A stretch of DNA of 43,564 nucleotides from assembly GCA_945861965.1 (NCBI GenBank), contig CAMAWM010000001.1, positions 1-43,564 on the forward strand. Reading direction: 5' to 3'. This DNA is from Chitinophaga pinensis (GTDB lineage Bacteria > Bacteroidota > Bacteroidia > UKL13-3). Within the stretch, counting starts at the first letter, position 1. Each line of letters starts with the position of its first letter. Below, one piece after another: positions 8,085 to 32,033 of this stretch. The position numbers and the translations under genes were made by a program. The notes beneath the pieces are model-generated. The model saw only the letters and a program-made list of their open reading frames with translations. It ran no database searches and had not been told where the DNA came from.

Positions 8085-11000
8085 ATGAATAAATTTTACA
8101 CAAACAATCAAACTAACAAGTCATTTACTTTTGTATGGCTGCTAGCAATTTTGCTAAACGTATTATTATTTAGCAATGGAGCAAAAGCTCAAATTTCTTC
8201 TATGGTTTACAGCTCGTCAAATCCAGTTGCTTACAGCACATTGGTTATTTCGGCCGGAACTCAAGTTAACAACACATCGACTGACGATGATGATGTGTAT
8301 GCAGTTCAAAACATTGGTTTCAATTTTGGATATTGTGGAAACACATTTACCACAGTTGGTATTGCTGCCAATGGATATTTGAAACTTGGTGGTGTTAGTT
8401 CAAATTATTATTCTGCTGCTCCATCAAACCAAGCAAACACCATTTCTGCATTCAACAACGATTTGCAAGGTGCTGGTTTGACAAACAGTAAAATTAGAAT
8501 TCAAACCATTGGTTCTGCTCCAAGCAGAGTGTGTGTAATACAATTTAGCGATTGGTCGTATTATCCATATTCAACAAGTGTGCTTTTCAATTTTCAAATC
8601 CGTTTAAGTGAAATTGACGGTCAAGTGCAAATAGTTTACGGACCTGTTACACCTTATAGTTATACTTTATCGGTTGGAGTTTCAGGAAGTACTACGGCTG
8701 ATCGTAATATGTTATCAAGTTCAACAACATGGGCAAGTCCTTCGGTTTTAACTACAGGCACAGGAACCATGACATTGTCAAATACAGTTTATCCTGATTC
8801 GGGCAGAACGTATACTTGGGGAAATCCTCCAATGGTTATTGATTCGGTTTCAACTGTTCAAGCATTGGGAAATGCATTGTTAGGTGCTTCAAACCAAGCA
8901 GCAATTGCTGCAGTTTGGTACACACGCGGTGCTACAAACCCTAAAACTATGTCGCAAATTATATTTAATACAAGCGGTACAACAAACGTTGCTGATTTAA
9001 CTGCAGCACGAGTTCTTTATACTGGAAGCAATCCTAACTTTACGATGGCTGCAGTGATAAGACAATTTGGTTCTGACATAACATCGCCAAGTGGCTCACT
9101 TACTTTTAATGGATTGGATACCCTAGCTTCGGGTCCTAACTATTATTGGTTGGTATATGATATAACTACAAACGTAAATGCATTAGGTCGCCTAATTGAT
9201 GGTACTTGTACCAGCGTTACAGATTCTGCTGCTCGTACTCCAAACATTACATCGCCAGCAGGTAACCGTGTCATTATTCAACCAATGGGCGGGGTTTATA
9301 CAATTAATCCTGTAGGTACAGGTCCTTTAAACTTTACCACATTTGCTGCTGCAATTACTGCATTAGGAAATGGAGTAGTTTCTGCGGTTACATTTAACGT
9401 AGCAGCTGCTACTTATAACGAGCAAGTTGTTATCCCAAGTACAATTCCTGGTGTATCACATATTAATACAATAACATTTGATGGAGGAAACGGAAATGCC
9501 GCTACACGTATTATTACTGGTGGTTCAGGTGGTGCTGGTCCTACAAGTTCGGCTTCGTTCTTAATCAATGGAGCAAGATATATTAGAGTTAGAAATTTAA
9601 CCATTAACAATAACAGTTCAGCAGCAGTTGGTTTTGCAATCGTTGGTTCTTCAGCAAGTTACAACGGAAGTAACAACAGTCTTTCTCGTTGTATTATAAA
9701 TATTCCTGTACAAAGCGGAACTGCTTCAACTGGGTATTTAATTTCTGTTACAGCTTCAGCTGGTGGATACGGTGTAAGTGCAATGGGTGCTGATAGTACA
9801 GTAATTGATAGCAACGTAGCTACAGGTGGTGGTTACGGAATTGTACATTACGGTATGACAAACGGAGCTTATAACCGCGGTATCAGAATTCGTGGAAACA
9901 CAATTACTACAAACTACATGGGCGGATATGTTGCCTACAATTTTGGTCAGTTTGAAGTAAAGAATAATACATTCAATATGGGTGCTGGATATGGATATTA
10001 TGGATTGTATTTTTATTACAACCAAAATAGCAGCACTTCAATCCCAACACAAATAATAGGAAACACATGGAATAATTTTGGTGGATATGGAATGTATTGC
10101 TACTATCCTTCAGCAGCAACATCTACCGCTCCATTAGAAGTATATAACAATATGTGGTGGGCAGGTGCAGGTTCATCGTATCCTGGATATTATGGTTTGT
10201 ATTTATACCAACCAGCAGGTGCCATTTCATTGGTATATCACAATACCTGGTACATGGGCGGAGCAGGAACTTCAACTACCTATTGCGGAATGTATAATAA
10301 TGGATCAAGCAGTACCTTTATTAAAAATAATATTTTTAGTGTAGGTGCAGGTTCGGCTACTCCACTTTATTGTGCAACAAGTCCAACAGGTAATATTGTA
10401 AACTACAATAATTACTACAACTGGACAAATATTACAACTGGAAACTTGTTGTATAGAGGTACATTTTACACTCCATCAACATACAAAACAGCTACTGCAG
10501 GTGGAGACTCATCGTTTAACGTAGCGCCAAGTTATGTTAACAGAGTTATTCCTACAGTTAATCTTCACCTTCTGGACAATTGTAATCCTAAAGGAGTTGA
10601 CTTAACAGCGATAGTTCCTTTGGATATTGATAACCAAACCCGTTCCGTTACTCCAAATGTTGGTGCAGACGAAGCAGGTAGTTTCAGTTTGGATGTTATG
10701 CCTCAGTTTGTGGTTAGCCCAGTGGCTCCAATTGTTACAGGCGCACAAGATTTAATCATTAAAATAAAAAATGTTGGAACTACACAGCTTACAGCTTTCA
10801 ATATTTCATACCGACATAATTTAGGAACTCCGGTTTCTCAAACTTGGTTTGGTACTTTAGATGCTTGCGATACCACTTCAGTAATATTTACAGGTTCGCA
10901 ACAAATTACATTAGTGGGTACCAACCAAATTAAAATTTATACCGATGCTCCTAATTTCAGTTCGGATGCAAACGTTTCAAACGATACAATAAATGTATCC

Positions 11001-14000
11001 ATGTTTGCACCAATGAGCGGAGTATATACCATTGGCGGTACAGGTGCTGATTTTGCAACTTTCAGTGCGGCTGCAAGTGCAGTTTCAACTGCAGGTCTTG
11101 CCGGAGCAGTTCGATTTGTAGTTGCTGCTGGTACTTATAACGATCGTTTGGTTATACCAAATACAGTTATTCCTGGATTGTCTGCAGTTAATACGATAGT
11201 GTTTGATGGTGGAAACGGAAATGCTACAACACGTGTATTAACGAATAATTCTATTTCGGGTGCTGTTATTCAAATTTCAGGACAGAAATACATTACCATT
11301 CGTAACTTAACTGTTACCAATCAAGCAGCAATGTCAGGTATTTCATTTGTTGGTTCAGCATCTAACTACAACAATACTGGTTGTGGTGTTCAAGGTTGTA
11401 TCGTAAATATTCCAGTTCAAACTGGTACTTCATCAGCGGGATGGGGAATTACTTTCAGTGCTGGTGCTGGTGCAGCAAGTGCTCAAGGTGGCGACTCTAT
11501 AACTGTGGATAGCAACATTGTAAATGGTGGAAGTTATGGTATAGTAGTTTATGGATCGACCAATGCCAATTTCAACAGATTTTTAAGAGTAAGAAACAAT
11601 ACTATAAATAGCAACAACTACATGGGTTGTTACATTGCGTATAACTACAATGCCATTGATTTTATTGGCAACAAAGTGTACATGCAAGGTGTTAACTATG
11701 GCTACTACGGTGTTTATTACTACGGCAATCAAAACGGAAGTACCACTGTTCCGCACAGATTTAACAACAACCAGATTTATGGTTTTGGTGGATACGGAGT
11801 GTATTGGTATTACCCAACATCTTCAGTATCTACAGCTACAACTCAAGTGTATAACAACATAGTTAGAGGTGGATTGGGAACCAGTTATCCTGGATATTAT
11901 GGAATGTATTATATGATGCAGAATGCAGGTGTTTCTCTATTCTACCACAACACTTTCCACATGCCAGGTGCAGGATCTTCAACATCGTACACAGGATGCT
12001 ATATTTCAGGATCAACGGCTACAGTTATTAAAAACAATATGTTTATTGTAACCGACGGTTCTTATACTCCTTTGTATTTGGGAACAAGCCCTACAGGAAA
12101 TTTGGTGAATTACAATATCTATTATAATTCTACTGGAACAACGGCTACTTTACTTTATCGTAACGGTAACTGGACATCGGCTAACTATTTGTCGAACACT
12201 GCAGGTGGAGATACTTCATACAATGTAGTTCCTCCGGTTGTTAGTTTAACAACACCTGACTTCCACTTATCTAACGGATGTATCAGAGGATTTGATTTAA
12301 CAACAGATGTTCCTTTGGATTTAGACTTATTAGCTCGTTCAACAACTCCAAATATTGGACCTTATGAATATCCAGCGGTTGCTTTGGATATTGCACCAAG
12401 TGCTATCATCACGCCTTCGTTCCCTATTTCATCAGGTGCACAAGATTTAAGAGTACGCATTTCAAACAATGGTGGAACAACTGTTACTGCATTCAACATT
12501 GCATACAGATTGAATAACGCAACGCCTGTTATTCAAGGTTGGACTGGTTCATTAAACAGTTGCGATACGACTTCGGTTTTATTTACAGGAAGTCAGCAAG
12601 TAACTTTGTTAAACGGTACCAATACATTGAAAGTGTATACTTACGCTCCAAACGGAAGTGCAGATTTAAATACTTTTAACGATACATTAAACACACAGCT
12701 TTCTACTCCAATGAGTGGAACTTATGTTATTGGTGTAGCGCCTTCTGACTTTACCACATTTGCTACTGCAATTGCAGCTATGCAATTGCGTGGAGTTGGT
12801 GGTGCAATTAACTTTGTAGTTAAAACAGCAACTTACTCTGAAAGCGTAACAGTTCCTTCAGGAATACAAGGATTGAATGCAACAAGTACTGTTACTTTCA
12901 GATCTATTGCAAACAATTCAGATTCAGTAATTGTTAATGGTAACGGAACTTCAACAACTCTTGTAGTTTCAGGTGCTTCGTATGTTAACTTTAGCAACAT
13001 GACCATTACCACTACAAACGCTGGTGTTGGATCACTTGTTATGTCTGGAGTAAATACTGGAAATACATTCTACAATGTTAAATTCATAAACTTGCCTTAC
13101 ACTACGGCAGCAACGTATATATTGTACACTCAAGGTTCAACACTTACTGATGTTACATTCAGAAGATGTTTGATTCAAGGTGGTTATTATGGTGCTTGGA
13201 TTTATAACAACGGAACCACTTGGAACAACCGAGTAACCATTGACAGCAGCACATTTAACAATATCTACTATTATCCAATGTATTTGTATTATGGATTAAA
13301 CACCAGAATTACAAACAATCAGATAAATGGTAACGGAGCTTCTGGAGTTCAGTATTTCTATACCTACTACCAAGATTCAGCTTATACAATTGCAAACAAC
13401 AGGTTTGATATGGCTTCAAACATTTCTACTGTTTACTCATACCTTACCTATTATGCAGTAGGAAATGCAGTAAACAGAGTGAGAGTAAATAACAACATAT
13501 TTACACTTGCCAACAGCAACTGTTATTTCTACGGATACTGGTATTATGGAACGTATAACGATTATTTCAACAACGTTATCAATACAGGCTTAGGTTACAT
13601 GAATTTTGGAGGAGGTAACTACCACCGTATCGTTAACAATACTATTTTTGGAAACTCAAGCAGTTATACTTCTTATCAAATTTCTGGATACACCGGAACA
13701 GAGGTTAAAAACAACCATTTAATCAACAACGCTGGAGCGTATTCATTGTATTGGTCAGGCGCACCTGGAGTAACCGAGATTTCGGATTACAACAATTATT
13801 TCTCAACCAATCCTTCCAATGCTGTATATCAAGCAGGTGCTTACAATATCAATGCACTAAGATGGTTAGCTACTAATATCACTGAAAAGAGAGATCAGAA
13901 CTCAGTGTCGTACCGTCCAGCTGCATTTACAAGCACAACTAACTTTGCTCCAAGCCCTGCAGATTCTGCTGTTTGGTCATTGAATGGTCGTGGAATACAA

Positions 14001-15218: not shown

Positions 15219-16868
15219 ATGAGTAATTCTGATATTGCCGATATATTAAAATTATTTGCCGATTTAAGCGAGTTGCATGATGGGAATCCATTTAAAATAA
15301 AATCCTATGCAGCGGCTGCTTTTCGAATTGATAAAATGCCTCTTAAATTGGCGGATTTGGATTTGGAAAAGCTTGAAAAAGTTGAAGGCGTTGGAAAAAG
15401 TATTGCACAAAAAATTCACGAAATTAACACTACAGAAAGTTTTACTGAACTAAATGATTTGCTCAATCTAACACCCACTGGGGTTTTGCAGATTATGAAA
15501 ATTAAAGGATTGGGACCCAAAAAAGTTGAATTAATTTGGAAAGAACTGGGTGTAGAATCTATTGGTGAATTAATTTATGCGTGTAAAGAAAATAGATTGG
15601 CACAAGCAAAAGGTTTTGGATTAAAAACACAAGCAAGTGTTGTCAAACAAATTGAATTTATGTTTGTCTCAGCCAATAAATTTCATTATTCAAAAGTTGA
15701 GATTTTAGCCAATAATTTGCTAGAAGAATTAAACCCTCATTTTGATAAAAATATTTCTGTTTGTGGTGCTTTGAGACGAAAAATGGAGATTGTTGATTGC
15801 GTTGAAATAATTATTGGTGATGATGATTTTCAGTCAGCAGTTGAAATTATTTTTAATTCATCCATTTTAATCGATCCAATTGTTGATGGTACAACGATTA
15901 TTGGAAAAATCGAAAATTGTGATGTTCGGATTTATCTTGTAAGAAAGGAAGAATACATTCAACAATTATTTATTAAAACGGGTTCGGAAAATCATATAGA
16001 ACAGTTGGCGATAAAAGAATTAAATATCCAAATTACTAGTGAAGAGGAAATTTATTCAAAACTCAATTTGCCTTTTATTGAACCTGAATTGCGTGAAGGA
16101 TTATTTGAAATTGAAAAAGCGAAATCTGGAACTTTAAAGAAATTAATTGAACTTTCAGATTTAAAGGGCATTTTACATAATCACAGTACTTGGAGTGATG
16201 GATTAAATACAATAGAAGAAATGGCTAATTTTTGTATCCAACATCATTACGAATATTTTGGAATTGCAGATCATAGCAAAGCTGCATTTTATGCCAAAGG
16301 ATTGAAAGAGGATCAAGTTCTAAGTCAACATGTAGAAATTGATAAATTGAACGATAAATTATTTCCATTTAAAATTTTTAAAGGAACCGAATGCGATATT
16401 TTAAACGATGGAAATTTGGATTATTCGGATGAAATTTTAAAAACTTTTGATTATGTGGTTGTATCAATTCACAGCAATTTAAAAATGAGCGAAGAAAAAG
16501 CAATGCTACGATTATTAAAAGCAATTGAAAATCCATACACCAGTATTTTAGGTCATCCAACAGGCAGATTATTATTGATTAGAGAAGGATATCCAATTGA
16601 TCATAAAAAAATTATTGATGCCTGCGCGGCTAATGAAGTGGTCATTGAGATTAATGCAAATCCATATCGATTGGATATAGATTGGCGTTGGATTGATTAT
16701 GCATTGAATAAAAATGTGATATTGAGCATTAATCCAGATGCACACGAATGTGATGGATTGCACGATATGTATTATGGTACATTAATAGCGCGAAAAGGTG
16801 GTTTATATAAAGAGATGTGTTTGAATGCAAAGAGCAGAGAAGAAATCACTGCTTTTTTTAATCGTTAA
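15219..16868 (+). CDS. polX: PolX-family protein with intact PHP domain and altered polymerase active site
   Basis: This 549-residue protein has the PolX layout: a helix-hairpin-helix DNA-binding region (about 1-150; VEGVGKSIAQKI, IKGLGPKKVELI), a nucleotidyltransferase palm (about 175-300) and a C-terminal PHP phosphoesterase (about 315-549). All PHP metal motifs are present: HNH at 320-322, ADH at 350-352, TECD at 390-393, H418, GHP at 445-447 and PDAH at 506-509. In the palm, the canonical motif GSxRR...DxD reads GALRR (183-187) followed by VDCVE, so the two catalytic aspartates align with Cys194 and Glu196; only the third, Asp235, is kept. Noncanonical PolX proteins lacking polymerase activity and acting as exonucleases have been described, and this one fits that class. 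A DNA-repair 3'-5' exonuclease role is therefore likelier than gap filling. Its stop overlaps the end of the convergent M1 peptidase gene by 11 bases. Confidence 0.88.
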   Translation: MSNSDIADILKLFADLSELHDGNPFKIKSYAAAAFRIDKMPLKLADLDLEKLEKVEGVGKSIAQKIHEINTTESFTELNDLLNLTPTGVLQIMKIKGLGPKKVELIWKELGVESIGELIYACKENRLAQAKGFGLKTQASVVKQIEFMFVSANKFHYSKVEILANNLLEELNPHFDKNISVCGALRRKMEIVDCVEIIIGDDDFQSAVEIIFNSSILIDPIVDGTTIIGKIENCDVRIYLVRKEEYIQQLFIKTGSENHIEQLAIKELNIQITSEEEIYSKLNLPFIEPELREGLFEIEKAKSGTLKKLIELSDLKGILHNHSTWSDGLNTIEEMANFCIQHHYEYFGIADHSKAAFYAKGLKEDQVLSQHVEIDKLNDKLFPFKIFKGTECDILNDGNLDYSDEILKTFDYVVVSIHSNLKMSEEKAMLRLLKAIENPYTSILGHPTGRLLLIREGYPIDHKKIIDACAANEVVIEINANPYRLDIDWRWIDYALNKNVILSINPDAHECDGLHDMYYGTLIARKGGLYKEMCLNAKSREEITAFFNR

Positions 16869-18528
16869 GTTTTTTCACATCAATTAAAATTGTACTCAAA
16901 TCAATTTTAAAATCATCGGGATTTGTATAACTCAATTCTATGTTTCGCCATTTTGATTCTGCGATTAAATAAGAAAAACTGTTTTTAGTAATGCTTGCTC
17001 TGATTGGCATTTCCAAGCCACGTACATTGCTTTTTAGTCTGTATTGAAGCTCAAGTCCAGCGGCATTATTTTTTTTGATTTTATATTCGAATACAGGAAG
17101 TGTAGCTCGATGTAAATACTGAAGAAAAAATTCCGAAAAATCATATCCAGTTCTCTTAATCAAAAAGTCTTCAATCATTTTTGAGCTTGCAATTTTTCGT
17201 TTGAAGGCAATACTTAAATCGTACAAACTATTCATCCAAAGTGTATCGTTATTTAGCATATTTCGCATGGTATGTAGCATCCAACTTCCTTTGTAATAAA
17301 TGTCGTTATCTTTTCTGTTGTGAAAACTTACATCGTAAATTCCAATCATAGCTTGTCGGTTTTTTATTTTTTGTTTTTGCTCCAACAAATACTCAATGGC
17401 TTTTTCTTTTCCCAATGTAGATTCAACATACAAAGCTTCTGCATACGTTGTAAAAGATTCGTGCAGCCACATATCAGCAGCATCGTTACAACTAATGCTG
17501 TTTCCAAACCATTCGTGCCCACTTTCGTGTACGATGATAAAATCAAAATCAAATTTATTGTTTGAGAAATGATTGCCATAACTCACACAACTTTGGTGTT
17601 CCATTCCCCAATAATCGGTTTCAACTAATTTATAACCATCGTCCCAAAACGGATACGGTCCAAAATATTTTTCGAAACTTGCAAGCATCGTTTTGCATTG
17701 CTTAAAATGTTTATCGGCATCGGCTTCATGTCCTTGCAGAATATAATAATCAAGATTTAATACTCCATTTTTTGTGCTTGTATAATGGTCTTGAAGTCGT
17801 GTGTAATTTGCAACATTGATGGTGATATTGTAATTGTTTATTGGATAAGAAACTTGCCAATCAAATTGTTTAAATCCATTTTGCAATCTCAATTCGCCAA
17901 CAAATTTTCCGTTCGAAACGCCAACTAAATTATCAGGAACTTGCAAATGCATCAACATCGTTTCTGCTTCATCACTCAAATGATCTTTGCACGGTAGCCA
18001 GCAACTTGCGCCAATTCCTTCGCAAGCCAAACCAACCCAATCGTTGTTTAATCGGTCTTTTTTCCAAACAAATCCGCCATCCCAAGGTGCATTTTTTGCT
18101 TCAATCGGATTTCCCGAAAAGTAAACAATGATTTTTTCAGTACTTCCTTTGATTAACTTATTTTTGAATGAAACAAAACAAGCATTGCTATCTCGTTCAA
18201 ATTTTAATTCCTCTTTCCCATGTTCAATTTTTTCAATTTTCATGTTGGCGAAAAAATCGAGTTGGATTTTTTTTGCATCGTTCATTGTCAAAAATGTAAT
18301 TTCATTTTTGCCTGAAATAAATTTTTTTTCGGGATCTACCTTTACAGTTATTTCATACGTTTTCACATCGTAACAAGTCCGAAATTTTGTAAGTTTCCCA
18401 TGAAGATAATCGTATTTGCTAAAGGATTGAGAATGCAATGTGCCAATAATAAAAAAAGCTATCACACTTAATTTCAGTCTGATATTGTTTGAATAGTACA
18501 ATGAATAGGATGTGTTTTTCAAAAGCAA
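16858..18528 (-). CDS. Secreted M1-family metallopeptidase (aminopeptidase-like)
   Basis: This 556-residue gluzincin has zinc ligands His334 and His338 (HESGH) and Glu357, exactly 18 residues after the second His, as in family M1. The exopeptidase motif appears as GMEH (308-311), a common Bacteroidota version of GAMEN. An N-terminal beta-sandwich domain precedes the catalytic domain. A hydrophobic export signal around residues 18-33 (SVIAFFIIGTLHSQ) suggests a periplasmic or surface location. The start is uncertain: the frame opens with TTG at 18528 and no ATG lies before the signal, so another TTG (for example at 18501) is possible. It lies 15 bases after trhO and may be cotranscribed. Its 3' end overlaps polX by 11 bases. 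Confidence 0.88.
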   Translation of the reverse strand: MLLKNTSYSLYYSNNIRLKLSVIAFFIIGTLHSQSFSKYDYLHGKLTKFRTCYDVKTYEITVKVDPEKKFISGKNEITFLTMNDAKKIQLDFFANMKIEKIEHGKEELKFERDSNACFVSFKNKLIKGSTEKIIVYFSGNPIEAKNAPWDGGFVWKKDRLNNDWVGLACEGIGASCWLPCKDHLSDEAETMLMHLQVPDNLVGVSNGKFVGELRLQNGFKQFDWQVSYPINNYNITINVANYTRLQDHYTSTKNGVLNLDYYILQGHEADADKHFKQCKTMLASFEKYFGPYPFWDDGYKLVETDYWGMEHQSCVSYGNHFSNNKFDFDFIIVHESGHEWFGNSISCNDAADMWLHESFTTYAEALYVESTLGKEKAIEYLLEQKQKIKNRQAMIGIYDVSFHNRKDNDIYYKGSWMLHTMRNMLNNDTLWMNSLYDLSIAFKRKIASSKMIEDFLIKRTGYDFSEFFLQYLHRATLPVFEYKIKKNNAAGLELQYRLKSNVRGLEMPIRASITKNSFSYLIAESKWRNIELSYTNPDDFKIDLSTILIDVKKLND

Positions 18529-18543
18529 AAAATTGGATTGTTA

Positions 18544-19476
18544 TTACGAATCTATGGAATGTCGAGTATAATATCCAGTTCCGTTATACACGCGCTTTTT
18601 TGGGTTATTTTTACACTCGTCATTACAAGCACCCTGCATTTCTTCAGAGCATTTTTCGCACATATTAAATTGTTCGTTGCAATCAATGTTTGCACAATTT
18701 AAACTGCGGTTTGTTGGCTCGTCACATTGCTTACACATTGCTATAAACTGCGGATTTACATTGTTTATCGGAATAGAAACTCTTCCGTCAAACACATACA
18801 ATGCGCCATCAAAATCTTTTCCGCCTGTCTCTTTCGAATAGCCAATAATTCCGTTGTGTAATTGAAACACATCTTTGAATCCTTCTTTTAATAACAATGC
18901 ACTGGCTTTTTCGCATTTAATTCCACCGGTACAACAAGTTATTATTTTTTTGTTTTTGTATTTTTTAAGTTCAGCAATTTTTTGCGGAAACTCTCTGAAG
19001 TTTTCAATGTCAAGTGTAACAGAATTTTTAAACTTACCTAATCTTGTTTCGTAATTGCTTCTAACATCCAACACCAACACATCGTCCTGTTCTTTCATCT
19101 GTTGAAATTCGGCACCATTTAAGTGTATTCCAGTTTGTTTTGTTGGATCAATTATTTTAGGATTTCGCAAGCCACTAAAAACAATTTCTTTTTTTAATCT
19201 TACATGCATTCGTTGAAATGCGTGTTCGTTTGATGCATCAATTTTAAATTCGATTTTCGCAAAACGAGCATCGGATTTTAAGTCTTTCATGTACTGTTCG
19301 CAGGCTTCAACTTTGCCACTAATACTTCCGTTAATTCCTTCGTTGGCAATATAAATTCGACCTCGAAGTTTTAAACTTTTGCAATACGCCAAATGCTTTT
19401 CAGCAAATTGCGATGCATCATCAATTGTGGTGTAATTGTAGTAAGCTAAGATTAAGTATTTGTCTGAACGATCCAT
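18544..19476 (-). CDS. trhO: tRNA uridine(34) hydroxylase, rhodanese-type
   Basis: This 310-residue TrhO (YceA) family protein hydroxylates U34 of certain tRNAs in an oxygen-dependent route to 5-hydroxyuridine and related wobble modifications. The N-terminal ferredoxin-like domain has RGRIYIANEGINGS (39-52). The central rhodanese domain has VLDVRSNYE (134-142) and the active loop CTGGIKCEKAS with the catalytic Cys at 182. The C-terminal region is a Cys-rich zinc-binding-like segment (CKQC, C-x-C pairs, CEKC, CNDEC). Length and domain order are normal for the family. ATG 19476 is preceded by TACCTTCG (19488-19495, minus strand), a close relative of the -7 consensus. It lies 67 bases downstream of tyrS. 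Confidence 0.93.
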   Translation of the reverse strand: MDRSDKYLILAYYNYTTIDDASQFAEKHLAYCKSLKLRGRIYIANEGINGSISGKVEACEQYMKDLKSDARFAKIEFKIDASNEHAFQRMHVRLKKEIVFSGLRNPKIIDPTKQTGIHLNGAEFQQMKEQDDVLVLDVRSNYETRLGKFKNSVTLDIENFREFPQKIAELKKYKNKKIITCCTGGIKCEKASALLLKEGFKDVFQLHNGIIGYSKETGGKDFDGALYVFDGRVSIPINNVNPQFIAMCKQCDEPTNRSLNCANIDCNEQFNMCEKCSEEMQGACNDECKNNPKKRVYNGTGYYTRHSIDS

Positions 19477-28562: not shown

Positions 28563-29942
28563 ATGAGGAATTGTATTATTCTATTAATTCTAACTATTTC
28601 ATGCAACTTTAACATAGTTGCACAAAATGATTCTGCAGAACAAAAAACTCCATTTGAGGGAATGGAAATAAATTGGATTAATGGCCAAAACAGACAACAG
28701 GAATTTCTATTAACACTAAAAAAAGGATCAGAAATTGTAATAACTGGATTTGCATATTTGGATTCGTATTACAATTTCAATTTTGCAAAACCGATAGACA
28801 ATACCCAAACAATTTCGGCAACAATTGGAAGGCATAACGAAGTTACATTAAATCTTGCAAGCATAGGTTTTGAAACGTCTTACAATAATATTTTAGCCAG
28901 GGTTTTTGTTCAATACGGGCAAATGTTAGCAATTGTTCAGGATCAGGATGCATCGGTTTTTCGTGGTAGAAATACAGGAATAAATAATTTAAAATTCATA
29001 CGCGAAGCAGCAGCTGGATATCATTTTAATAAATGGAAAGGTATCAATGTAGAAATGGGAATATTTTCCAGTTTTATTGGATTGGAAAGTTACTTAACAC
29101 AAGAAAACTGGAATTATCAACGAAGCATGGTTTCTGATTTCACTCCATTTTATTTTACGGGTGCGCGAGTTCAACTATTTCCAACAACAAAATTAAAAAC
29201 TGAGCTTTGGATTCTTAATGGTTGGCAATCCTATAATAGTTTTAGCAATTCTCCCGGTTTAGGCAGTTCTACTTTGTGGAGACCTAATGAAAACCTTCAA
29301 TTAGTAGCTAATTTTTATACTGGAAAAGACACAAATAATCCCGACACATTAGGAAATCAATCTCAAAGAATTAGGTTTCATCACGATAATTGTATTGTGG
29401 CTAGGTATTATAAAAAACCTAAATCTACTGCCATTTCGCAGGCGGCTTTTTGTATCAATTCTCATTATGGTTTTCAATCAAACAACGAAGCGAAAGACGA
29501 AGTGAAATCTTCCGAAAATTTTATGTTTGGCGCTGCTGTTTCAAACCGAATTTGGTTTAATAAAAACAAACTTGCATTGACATTACGTGGTGATTATTTA
29601 ACTAATCAATCGGTTGAAAACGGAAATAATAAATCACCGTACATGGCATTTTTACCTGCTGAACCAGGAAATAAAACAAACAATTATGACGTAGCAATTG
29701 CTAACAATGAAAAGTTAAAATTGTTTCAGTTTACAAGTACATTTGATGTGATGCCTAACGATAATTTAACTTTCAGATTTGAATATTGTTACCGCAGTTC
29801 AAGCATTCCATATTTTTTAGGGTCAGGTGGAACCACATCGCCAAGTGCTTGGATAAATGGACCTTCAACAATAAATCCTTGGTCTGCCGATTTGAAAAAA
29901 GATGAGAACAGAATTACGATTTCTGTAAATTTTAGGATGTAA
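28563..29942 (+). CDS. Outer-membrane beta-barrel protein, BBP2 (OmpL-like porin) type
   Basis: This 459-residue protein has a signal peptide (about 1-20, ending IVA-Q). The opening strand (ITGFAYLDSYYNFNFAKPIDNTQ) is close to the signature first strand of the putative beta-barrel porin-2 family. Amphipathic strands continue to the end, with the last one (ENRITISVNFRM) carrying the C-terminal aromatic-x signature of outer-membrane barrels (Phe then Arg-Met). It is likely a general or specific diffusion channel; the substrate is unknown. It is monocistronic. Its stop lies only 25 bases before the stranded acyl-CoA dehydrogenase fragment at 29967. Confidence 0.85.
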   Translation: MRNCIILLILTISCNFNIVAQNDSAEQKTPFEGMEINWINGQNRQQEFLLTLKKGSEIVITGFAYLDSYYNFNFAKPIDNTQTISATIGRHNEVTLNLASIGFETSYNNILARVFVQYGQMLAIVQDQDASVFRGRNTGINNLKFIREAAAGYHFNKWKGINVEMGIFSSFIGLESYLTQENWNYQRSMVSDFTPFYFTGARVQLFPTTKLKTELWILNGWQSYNSFSNSPGLGSSTLWRPNENLQLVANFYTGKDTNNPDTLGNQSQRIRFHHDNCIVARYYKKPKSTAISQAAFCINSHYGFQSNNEAKDEVKSSENFMFGAAVSNRIWFNKNKLALTLRGDYLTNQSVENGNNKSPYMAFLPAEPGNKTNNYDVAIANNEKLKLFQFTSTFDVMPNDNLTFRFEYCYRSSSIPYFLGSGGTTSPSAWINGPSTINPWSADLKKDENRITISVNFRM

Positions 29943-29966
29943 TTCTGAAAGAGTTTTAAGTGATTT

Positions 29967-30061
29967 TTATTTTAGAATAGTCCGAGCTATCACTATTTTT
30001 TGAATTTCGCTAGTCACTTTGCCAATTGTACAAAGTTTTGAATCGCGATAAAATTTTTCAA
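29967..30061 (-). pseudogene. Stranded 3'-end fragment of an acyl-CoA dehydrogenase gene
   Basis: About 79 of 95 positions match 30891-30985, the 3' end of the intact acyl-CoA dehydrogenase gene, in the same orientation and at a constant offset of 924 bases with no indels. On the minus strand it still encodes about 30 residues of the C terminus in frame with the same TAA stop ([13 protein letters not shown], then KVTSEIQKI, then the final ILK). The catalytic-base motif GEGTSE has become GKVTSE. Similarity stops abruptly at 30061 and an in-frame TAA follows upstream of it. It is too short to be a gene: it is a leftover of an insertion or of a lost tandem paralogue. Confidence 0.85.
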
Positions 30062-30086
30062 GTTAAATTAATTTCCCCCTTTTTCT

Positions 30087-30094
30087 TACTTTTG
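30087..30094 (+). promoter_or_regulatory. Candidate -7 box of the nucleotidyltransferase cassette
   Basis: TACTTTTG matches TAnnTTTG fully and lies 11 bases before ATG 30106, giving an almost leaderless transcript. No good -33 TTG is visible. It lies just inside the left repeat boundary, so the cassette seems to carry its own promoter. Confidence 0.35.
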
Positions 30095-30105
30095 AATAAG
30101 TTAAA

Positions 30106-30342
30106 ATGGAAAACGAAGAAGAAAAAAATAAAGTAAATGAAGACGCGTTTCTATATAAAAGGGAAATCCGTTTTTTTAACTCGTTTGAAGAGCAGGCAGA
30201 ATATGAATTATTTGAAATGGCGAAGCTTACACCAATAGAACGGCTTATGCAGATGCGGAAATTTATTAACATAGCCTATGCAATGCACGGGTACAATCCT
30301 TCCAAATTGCCGTCAAAACATAAGATAAAAATAATAACATGA
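30106..30342 (+). CDS. Small helical protein paired with a nucleotidyltransferase
   Basis: This 78-residue charged protein is acidic at the start and strongly basic at the end (KHKIKII). It is predicted helical, with the segments FNSFEEQAEYELFEMAKL and TPIERLMQMRKFINIAYAM. Its TGA stop overlaps the ATG of the nucleotidyltransferase gene (ATGA), so the two are translationally coupled. I recognise no named family; it has no HEPN motif and no helix-turn-helix that I can identify. By position it resembles the first gene of a two-gene toxin-antitoxin module, or a dedicated partner or adaptor of the enzyme. It is flanked by the duplicated acyl-CoA dehydrogenase end. Confidence 0.75.
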   Translation: MENEEEKNKVNEDAFLYKREIRFFNSFEEQAEYELFEMAKLTPIERLMQMRKFINIAYAMHGYNPSKLPSKHKIKIIT

Positions 30343-30812
30343 ATGTTTTCGATTCTTACACTCACGAATTGCTTTTAACCCTTAATAAAGAACAAGTCGA
30401 GTATCTTGTTGTTGGCGGATATGCAGTAAATTATCATGGATACAGACGTACCACCGGAGATATTGACCTTTGGATAAAACCTGAGAATGGCGAAAATAAG
30501 GAAAGGATTTTAAGGAGTTTACATCGTTTAAAAGTTTCGGAAAGTAAATTGAAACAATTAAAAGCATTAGATTTCACAAAGCATGTTGTTTTTATTGATG
30601 GTGAAGAGCCATTTAAAATTGATTTTATGACACAGGTTTCGGGCGTTAATTTTGATGATGCATGGAAACAAAAAATTATAGCCAATATTGATGATTTAAA
30701 TATTCCCTTTTTACATTTATCCGATTTAATTGTTTCGAAAATAACAACTGGACGTAATAAAGATAAAATAGATATTGAAGAACTTCAAAAGATACAAATG
30801 CGCAAAAAATAA
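30339..30812 (+). CDS. Nucleotidyltransferase-fold protein (AbiEii/DUF6036-like)
   Basis: This 157-residue protein has the minimal nucleotidyltransferase core. The motif VVGGYAVNYHGYRRTTGDIDLWI gives the GG(x)...DxD site, with Asp at about residues 41 and 43. A second acidic strand is FKIDFM (about 93-98). The C-terminal helix contains LSDLIVSKITTGRNKDKIDIEEL, typical of the small AbiEii/DUF6036-like enzymes. Related proteins are toxins of type IV toxin-antitoxin pairs, antitoxins of MNT-HEPN pairs, or enzymes of unknown function. Catalytic residues are intact. With the preceding 78-residue gene it forms a two-gene cassette lying between direct repeats of a gene end. A role in defence or stasis is a guess from family and context. 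Confidence 0.82.
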   Translation: MNVFDSYTHELLLTLNKEQVEYLVVGGYAVNYHGYRRTTGDIDLWIKPENGENKERILRSLHRLKVSESKLKQLKALDFTKHVVFIDGEEPFKIDFMTQVSGVNFDDAWKQKIIANIDDLNIPFLHLSDLIVSKITTGRNKDKIDIEELQKIQMRKK

Positions 30813-30890
30813 TTTGCCGCAATCGTTTAAAGTCTTAGTTCTAAATTAAATTCTTATAGGTGCCTAACATAGCAAAGGTATTTGACAAAT

Positions 30891-30985
30891 TTATTTTAGA
30901 ATCTCTCTCGATATTACTATTTTTTGTATTTCGCTAGTTCCTTCACCAATGGTACAAAGTTTTGAATCGCGATAATATTTTTCGA
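30891..30985 (-). repeat. Right copy of the direct repeat flanking the nucleotidyltransferase cassette
   Basis: This is the functional copy: it is the native 3' end of the acyl-CoA dehydrogenase gene, including its stop. The mutated copy is at 29967-30061, same orientation, 924 bases away. Together they bracket 30062-30890. Confidence 0.85.
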
Positions 30986-32033
30986 CCGGAAAATCTTTTG
31001 TGTAACCATATCCACCAAAAATTTGAACTGCTTCGGTGCTTGCCCACACACACACTTCGCTTGCATAATATTTTGCCATTGCACTTTCTTTAGTCATTGG
31101 CAATCCGCGCATTTTCAAATCTATTGCCTGCATAGTTAGTAATTCTGCTGCCTCAATTCGCATCGCCATATCTGCCAGTTTAAAAGCAATTGCCTGGAAA
31201 TTTGAAATTGGCTGTCCAAATTGTTGTCTTTCTTTTGAGTATTTTAACGAAGCTTGATATGCGCCTTTTGCAATTCCTAAAGCCAATGAAGCAATTGAAA
31301 TTCTTCCGCCATCCAACACTTTCATTGATTGCTTAAATCCTTCTCCAATATTTCCCAAAATATTTTCGTTTGGAATTCGGCAATCTTCAAAAATCATTTC
31401 TGCAGTCTCGCTTGCGCGCATTCCTAATTTATTTTCTTTTTTGCCTCCGCTAAAACCTTTTATTCCTCTTTCAATTACAAACGCAGTTATACCATTTGAA
31501 TCTAAAGGCTCACCCGTTCTTGCCAAAACAACGGCTACATCGCTACTTATTCCGTGAGTTATCCAGTTTTTTGTGCCGTTTAATATCCAATCGTTTCCAT
31601 CTTTTTTTGCAACACATTGCATTCGCATTGCATCGCTTCCTGTATTGGCTTCGGTCAATCCCCATGCTCCAATCCATTCGCCTGTTGCAAGTTTGGGCAA
31701 CCATTTTTTCTTTTGCTCTTCGTTGCCAAATTGCAAAATATGTCCCGAACAAAGTGAGTTATGTGCAGCCATGCTAAGCCCAATTGAGCCGCAAACTTTT
31801 GACAACTCTTGAATTGCTGTCGAGTATTCAAAATAACCAAAACCAGCGCCACCGTATTCTTCAGGAATTAAAACGCCTAATAATCCAAGTTTGCCCATTT
31901 CACTAAACATTTCGCGTGGAAAATGTTGTGATTCGTCCCATTCCATTACAAAAGGTCTTATATTTTTTTCTGAAAAATCGCGCACCGTTTGCGCTACAAT
32001 TTTTTGATTTTCTGTCAACTCAAAACTCAGCAT
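30891..32033 (-). CDS. Acyl-CoA dehydrogenase
   Basis: This 380-residue flavoenzyme catalyses alpha,beta-dehydrogenation of an acyl-CoA. The full domain set is present: an N-terminal helical domain, a middle beta domain with [12 protein letters not shown] (FAD/substrate contacts) and [13 protein letters not shown], and a C-terminal helical domain with [30 protein letters not shown] and the catalytic-base motif GEGTSEIQ with Glu364. Length is standard. It could act in short- or branched-chain acyl-CoA degradation, which would fit the 2-oxoacid E1 dehydrogenase at 24491, but the substrate is not determined. Its last 95 bases are duplicated at 29967-30061 on the far side of the nucleotidyltransferase cassette. 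It starts 47 bases after the helix-hairpin-helix gene. Confidence 0.94.

Follow-up and report, generated by a model that had tools for sequence, protein, structure and literature searches.

A nucleotidyltransferase gene pair between two copies of an acyl-CoA dehydrogenase gene end: a probable insertion with long target duplication in Bacteroidia

The window analysed here, meaning the whole stretch of 43,564 nucleotides, carries a cassette of two small genes, one of them coding for a nucleotidyltransferase (NTase), which separates an orphan copy of an acyl-CoA dehydrogenase (ACAD) gene end from the live gene. The cassette is most likely an insertion scar with toxin-antitoxin (TA)-like cargo, an event of a known kind in a new setting, with evidence of recurrence. 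We consider it likely that the gene pair entered the gap between a porin gene and the ACAD gene in a single insertion, which duplicated about 94 bp of the target. The recurrence of such structures in related bacteria points to a simple and little-studied entry route for small gene sets.

Results

Repeat pair and content of the cassette

The two copies of the gene end form a direct repeat of 94 nt, 84% identical, ungapped and spaced by 924 bases (Table 1); the repeat that the initial annotation had described is thus real. It starts 1 bp past the ACAD stop codon, and 23 bp separate the orphan copy from the end of the porin gene. Read in frame with the live gene, the left copy (30 residues compared) still translates to the ACAD C terminus, in agreement with the earlier description of it as an orphan. 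The copies are unlike at 17 of 96 positions, nine of which are third, five first and three second codon positions. The 830 bp between them hold only an open reading frame (ORF) for 78 amino acids and one for a 157-residue NTase, which overlap via ATGA, so that the proposed two-gene content was confirmed as well.

A 95-bp query taken from the repeat matched two places in the genome (2.10 Mb, 61 contigs), the second with an E-value of 7.9e-23, and no third match was found there. As a chance control, a set of 503 units, each of one or two genes and 450-1100 bp long, was drawn from about 1.25 Mb (~59%) of the same genome. Three were bracketed by a direct repeat of at least 35 bits: two are overlapping units within the cassette (103 bits) and the third is a gene with a tandem paralogue (41 bits), which puts the background at 1 of 501 other units; at 30 bits, six of the 503 units were bracketed. 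Chance similarity of the two copies is ruled out by the genome-wide query together with this control. Elsewhere in the window, at 9399-12691, imperfect coding repeats (66-75%) with a spacing of about 1.7 kb probably represent tandem paralogous genes.

Table 1. Features of the cassette and of four insert-like segments in the same genome. Positions of the first eight features refer to the window, those of the last four to their own loci and contigs; terminators and promoters were assigned by eye.
Feature	Position	Strand	Evidence or remark
BBP2/OmpL-like beta-barrel porin gene, left neighbour, convergent with the ACAD gene	28563..29942	+	Pfam PF07642, E 8.2e-57
Orphan ACAD 3' end (left target copy)	29966..30059	-	altered at three positions invariant in 27 relatives
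Inner left flank, extending to the first start codon	30060..30105	+	sequence
78-aa partner ORF	30106..30342	+	no family match above cut-off
157-aa DUF6036/DUF2204 NTase ORF, start overlapping the partner stop (ATGA)	30339..30812	+	Pfam
Inner right flank of the cassette	30813..30889	+	single-copy in its own genome
Live ACAD 3' end (right target copy)	30890..30983	-	repeat comparison
ACAD gene, full length, 380 aa	30891..32033	-	homology, family match
L197, HTH + HipA-N + HipA-C operon	17192-19263 (C1:60192-62263)		between 42-bp, 98% copies of the ribosomal L20 terminator
L199, two genes at the 3' end of a hydrolase-like gene (by eye)	16212-19221 (C1)		56 bp, 91%
L206, TPR-protein gene	1040-2973 (C7)		107-bp, 94% duplicate of the neighbour's promoter and start codon
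L248, Kelch/secretion-tail gene and 165-aa gene	8725-10860 (C13)		119-bp, 95% copies, promoter and 5' end of a UvrD-like helicase gene

Origin of the orphan gene end

The ACAD ends of 27 relatives were compared with both copies (29 loci had been fetched, of which two were missed by the C-terminal pattern). At three sites the orphan alone departs from a G that the live gene shares with all 27 relatives; the name catalytic-base motif for the GEGTSE of this gene end is a label of the initial annotation. In a FastTree phylogeny of 93 nt the orphan and the live copy are sisters with a support of 0.859, on branches of 0.249 and 0.112, respectively. Both copies have KIV in place of the KLV of 27 of 27 relatives, and at codon positions 1 and 2 the copies differ by 12.9%, compared with 6.5% when the live gene is set against its nearest relative. 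The sister placement, the excess of change at these positions and the common isoleucine suggest a local duplication followed by loss of constraint. To judge from this alignment, the orphan most likely derives from the lineage's own ACAD end as an old copy that is now unconstrained, a reading that combines a narrow margin, a short alignment and moderate support.

The margin matters for a second explanation, homology-assisted illegitimate recombination, in which a donor DNA with the cassette and a related ACAD end would have paired on one side and been joined illegitimately on the other, one copy being donor-derived. It would account for the 16% difference between the copies, for the one site at which the orphan has the T of 27 of 27 relatives and the live gene an A (F to Y), and for the end of homology at the stop codon, where homology between species often ends; moreover, the copies are barely nearer to each other (0.183) than to their nearest relatives (0.204 for the orphan, 0.194 for the live gene). 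We nevertheless regard it as unlikely, as the two copies are sisters which share an isoleucine found in none of the relatives, and as each of the recurrent cases with 94-98% identity would need a near-identical donor with the cassette at the same gene. A gene end carried in from a foreign genome, as first suggested, is therefore not favoured, and the question whether the orphan is closer to the local or to a foreign gene is answered, narrowly, in favour of the local one.

The ACAD locus in relatives

In 21 of the 29 ACAD loci of relatives the gene adjoins a gene for an HHH protein. Beside ACAD, neither the porin nor the partner nor the NTase had a match in any of the 29 (flanks up to 1.5 kb), and no further genome of genus g1 was returned by the searches. 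Since no porin match was found at these loci, the empty site of the window was not found among them. Comparison of the interval between porin and ACAD, which the initial annotation had proposed as a check, hence found no porin-ACAD junction in the relatives; tblastn found one ACAD match per locus in 29 of 29 (flanks again up to 1.5 kb). A decayed full tandem paralogue, offered earlier as the alternative to integration, is not favoured by this result. Nor does it suit a two-step origin, with tandem duplication of the ACAD end or the whole gene and a later insertion or replacement between the copies. Such a sequence of events would give the same final structure at one locus, but many loci would each have had to go through it independently, every time with cargo between the copies, and we hold it to be highly improbable. 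At six of the loci (L010, L016, L017, L019, L028 and L031) a gene that by eye looks like an XerC-type recombinase gene lies downstream of ACAD.

Insert-like segments elsewhere in the genome

A scan for direct-repeat pairs (spacing 300-3000 bp, 40 bits) covered 1,251,189 of 2,103,224 bases, small overlaps included, and returned 38 pairs, 32 of them coding on both sides. The other six comprise a tandem paralogue pair (L215), the cassette of the window and the four insert-like segments of Table 1. The operon of L197 might be labelled HipBST-like. At L199 the stop codon of the gene survives in the orphan, and the live gene has gained an 18-residue extension of new sequence, which is what an insertion would produce. 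Because some of these cases carry ordinary secreted-protein cargo, the process would not be TA-specific.

Related NTase units in Bacteroidia

Close relatives of the NTase are patchily distributed. At an E-value of 1e-36 they occur in 16 of 395 genomes drawn from the class (our own included), spread over 12 families. A search within the family found them in 9 of 64 genomes, the same 64 that were drawn by the order-level search; at 1e-40 a search drawn from the phylum found the NTase in 1 of 395 genomes, our own. We collected 79 NTase units with their surroundings, 63 of which have a small partner gene directly upstream. In this set, which includes the discovery locus, counts one contig twice (L080 and L140) and has two units at L182, a direct repeat of at least 40 bits within 400 bp brackets 11 of the 78 units whose flanks were usable; among control units it does so in 8 of 309 (one-sided Fisher test, 2e-4). 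At a threshold of at least 80 bits the counts are 9 of 78 versus 2 of 309 (1.4e-5). The control genes came from the NTase regions themselves (360 units, 309 with usable flanks), and ORFs were called by a simple longest-ORF rule in place of a gene finder.

The enrichment persists when dispersed-looking or REP-type repeats are removed, a class judged by eye and not by counts in genomes (L127, L161 and L162 among the NTase units; two in L127, L146 and L162 among the controls): 8 of 75 NTase units versus 4 of 305 control units remain at 40 bits (p 4e-4). Two of the four remaining controls are TA-like themselves (L134, VapBC-like, and L125; both named by eye). No bracketing repeat at 40 bits was found in 67 of the 78 NTase units, among them the second NTase gene of our own genome (L139), where the best repeat scored 18.4 bits. 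Eight distinct loci, the window included, have NTases at least 59% identical; five are bracketed (the window, L121, L182, L140 and L161, the last by a repeat that looks dispersed) and three are not (L141, L181 and L183). A repeat-first scan added repeats that the unit test had missed, among them repeats of 43 bp in G109 and of 37-39 bp in G067 and G072; 73 repeat pairs passed its filter, many of them internal repeats of one region (L153).

The repeats are differing local sequences. They are gene 3' ends in the window, G061 and L083, terminators in G069, G072 and G067, a 3' flank with terminator in G010, and promoter regions in G109 and G327, terminators and promoters being assigned by eye. In G061 a 114-bp repeat (95%) is the 3' end of a 228-aa gene; the orphan copy is interrupted by a stop codon in frame and has lost 1 bp. 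The repeat of G024 (130 bp, 97%) starts in the final codons of the left gene, takes in a terminator and runs through the stop codon of the right gene. L083 is weaker evidence because its left copy lies at a contig end. Related pairs thus recur beside duplicated local sequence, which is what the initial annotation had proposed to look for. The searches for empty sites found none for the cassette of G061, whose 110-aa N-terminal piece matches 4 of 62 genomes (best beyond G061, 42%), and none for that of G109, whose family holds one genome.

More complex arrangements were noticed as well. Two repeat families (229 bp, 73%, and 88 bp, 95%) are interleaved at 7601-10152 of L136 (G010:C26), in an array made up of an NTase pair, a PIN-domain (VapBC-like) pair and a lipoprotein gene. 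Two different NTase pairs lie in tandem at 860-2790 of L182 (G327:C27), separated and flanked by three promoter-like repeats of ~110-150 bp. Beside the NTase pair of L125 (G004:C12), at 11170-12616, a HEPN-like 112-aa gene and an HTH-NTase-like 198-aa gene (both by eye) are flanked by 33-38-bp repeats. At 2880-4773 of L133 (G005:C55) a 115-bp repeat (96%) of part of aspS, one copy of it orphan, encloses GNAT acetyltransferase and lipoprotein genes, and the live aspS runs on into an extra tail.

The diversity of the repeats bears on the agent of insertion. The initial annotation had proposed an integrase specific for gene 3' ends that acts in trans, so that the cassette would be a mini-island with the gene end as its attachment site (attL/attR). 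The window and G061, both with the order orphan end, gene pair, live end at a gene 3' end, would be what such an enzyme leaves. The repeats, however, are locus-specific, include promoters, 5' ends and terminators, and span 37 to 229 bp; inspection of 14 inserts by eye showed no common cassette-end motif, the 19 ORFs of at least 100 aa listed in 20,980-43,098 of the window yielded no recombinase family, and there is no tRNA in the window. We therefore regard this agent as very unlikely. What stands of the proposed integration is a small two-gene insert, TA-like in its layout, bracketed by a duplicated gene end.

The rny-polA junction with and without insert

In genus g3, where the rny gene was recovered from 17 of 19 genomes, terminator hairpins at the rny-polA junction were inspected by eye at five loci. 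Two loci without a cassette (L107 and L120) have rny-polA gaps of 346 and 130 bp with one terminator hairpin. In L103 an NTase pair is flanked by two hairpins, and L104 shows the same arrangement up to the contig end. In L109 (G058:C113) a DUF433 gene and an apparently frameshifted short gene lie between two near-identical copies of the rny terminator; the score between these two is 0.90, and neither exceeds 0.74 with any other copy. The two copies within L104 score 0.64 and those within L103 0.69, less than the right copy of L103 scores against the left copy of L109 (0.74), while the right copies of L103 and L104 score 0.95. These scores of L103 and L104 fit an older shared insertion and alone do not show local duplication. 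As two different pairs, NTase and DUF433, each lie between two terminators, one junction has been occupied by both.

The NTase and its partner

The NTase scores above the curated Pfam cut-offs of PF19502 (42.6 bits, cut-off 23.6) and PF09970 (31.8 bits, cut-off 20.3) and thereby belongs to the DUF6036/DUF2204 families. An alignment of four sequences shows that the GG and DxD positions, which we take to be the NTase signature motif, are retained. No Pfam family scored above cut-off with the 78-aa partner, and NCBIfam and PADLOC gave no match to it; folded without alignment it is predicted to be mostly helical, and homologues with 52-68% identity lie upstream of the closest NTases. With the signature residues retained and a helical partner gene alongside, the pair is probably a TA-like or defence module. 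PADLOC gave a weak AbiEii match to the NTase (E 0.0063). The structure model of the NTase is of low confidence (pLDDT 59); its best Foldseek matches, TM1012, LnuA and MenT1, carry no weight, since the model is weak and none has an E-value below 0.001.

Carriage by phages or plasmids and a structured RNA at the junctions were also rejected. The NTase subtype had no match in phages and none confirmed in viral contigs, and the 16 plasmid records that matched it were all below 60% identity. A search for structured RNA at the junctions (29700-31200) gave one sub-threshold snoRNA match.

Discussion

The empty site would have read porin, about 23 bp, ACAD 3' end. A break inside ACAD, ~31 codons (stop included) from its end, would place a first copy of the ACAD end next to the porin gene, then the cassette, then a second copy that runs on into ACAD; the genes on either side would remain intact and the first copy would be free to decay. 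In general terms, A-B-C would become A-B-insert-B-C, in which the first B runs on from A and the second into C, and because B is present twice the genes that end in B are intact on both sides. We infer that each locus underwent a single insertion that duplicated B, and neither an integrase nor conserved element ends would be required. As to the chemistry, incoming DNA may have been captured at a break with long staggered ends that were then filled in; alternatively, a replicative template switch could have returned upstream of its departure point.

Selection would retain duplicating over deleting events. Repeat borders lie within a few bases of a stop codon in the window (1 bp), in G061 (6 bp) and also in G024, L199 and L248. 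Such borders are not obviously predicted by random breakage, and selection for intact genes would be the simplest reason for them. Such selection would not be strict, because the live gene of L199 gained its 18-residue tail.

More tentatively, Bacteroidia might gain small operons by a general transposase-free capture which leaves target duplications of ~40-230 bp, and this might be a common route of gene gain. If so, the duplication would protect the ends of the neighbours and could give the newcomer a ready terminator or promoter. The capture would carry TA-like pairs (the NTase pair, the DUF433 pair, the HipA operon) as well as other cargo, and with this range 'long target duplication' would not be peculiar to restriction-modification genes.

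These loci bear on how very small operons, TA-like ones included, pass from genome to genome with no obvious mobile element to carry them. An orphan copy, set beside the live one, would be a datable footprint of the event. The structures are possibly reversible, as recombination between the copies would restore the empty site, and the insertion reading predicts exactly one copy at a site without insert. For annotation, a pseudogene-like fragment beside a small operon can be the scar of a target duplication and not a lost paralogue.

Comparison with known systems

Among TA systems with an NTase, AbiEii/AbiE and MenAT have the two-gene layout and the NTase signature in common with the cassette. 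Beyond this the likeness consists of the weak AbiEii match and of MenT1 among the weak fold matches to a low-confidence model. The cassette differs in that its NTase belongs to DUF6036/DUF2204 and that the 78-aa partner matches neither an HTH family nor the AbiEi-type HTH antitoxin of type IV AbiE systems. HEPN-MNT modules likewise place an MNT-like NTase beside a small gene, but the partner in the cassette matches no HEPN family.

Mobile islands that integrate at gene 3' ends leave that end present twice, with one copy live. The cassette resembles them in this respect and differs from them in having no fixed attachment sequence and in the duplication of 5' ends and terminators at other loci; no integrase lies nearby among the 19 ORFs mentioned above.

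The closest parallel is the insertion of restriction-modification genes with long target duplication, which Nobusato et al. reportedly described for Helicobacter pylori in 2000. PMC3874152 treats the long direct repeats around such units, variable and 'in the order of 100 bp', as target duplications; the claim also appears in the introduction of PMC3031569 and in passages of PMC1643837. PMC2731543 treats short target repeats, and PMC2869330 transposed Arabidopsis genes with flanking repeats. The available passages on 'long target duplication' contain no application to NTase pairs or Bacteroidota.

As far as these passages go, the cassette resembles the restriction-modification cases as a discrete gene unit, with possibly addiction-like cargo, between long variable repeats (here 94 bp, 84%). 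The repeat is likewise locus-specific and derived from the local target, although 3 of 11 NTase cases have dispersed-looking repeats instead. One copy at an insert-free site was found at rny-polA in two g3 loci, and no relative with the porin-ACAD junction of the window was found. The cassette differs from the restriction-modification cases in lacking a strain-level pair of empty and filled sites for the window, in its setting in Bacteroidia and in its cargo, an NTase pair in the window and NTase, HipA-type, DUF433 or secreted-protein genes across the loci. What is known is insertion with long target duplication; what appears new, to go by the same passages, is the NTase-pair cargo and the setting in Bacteroidia.
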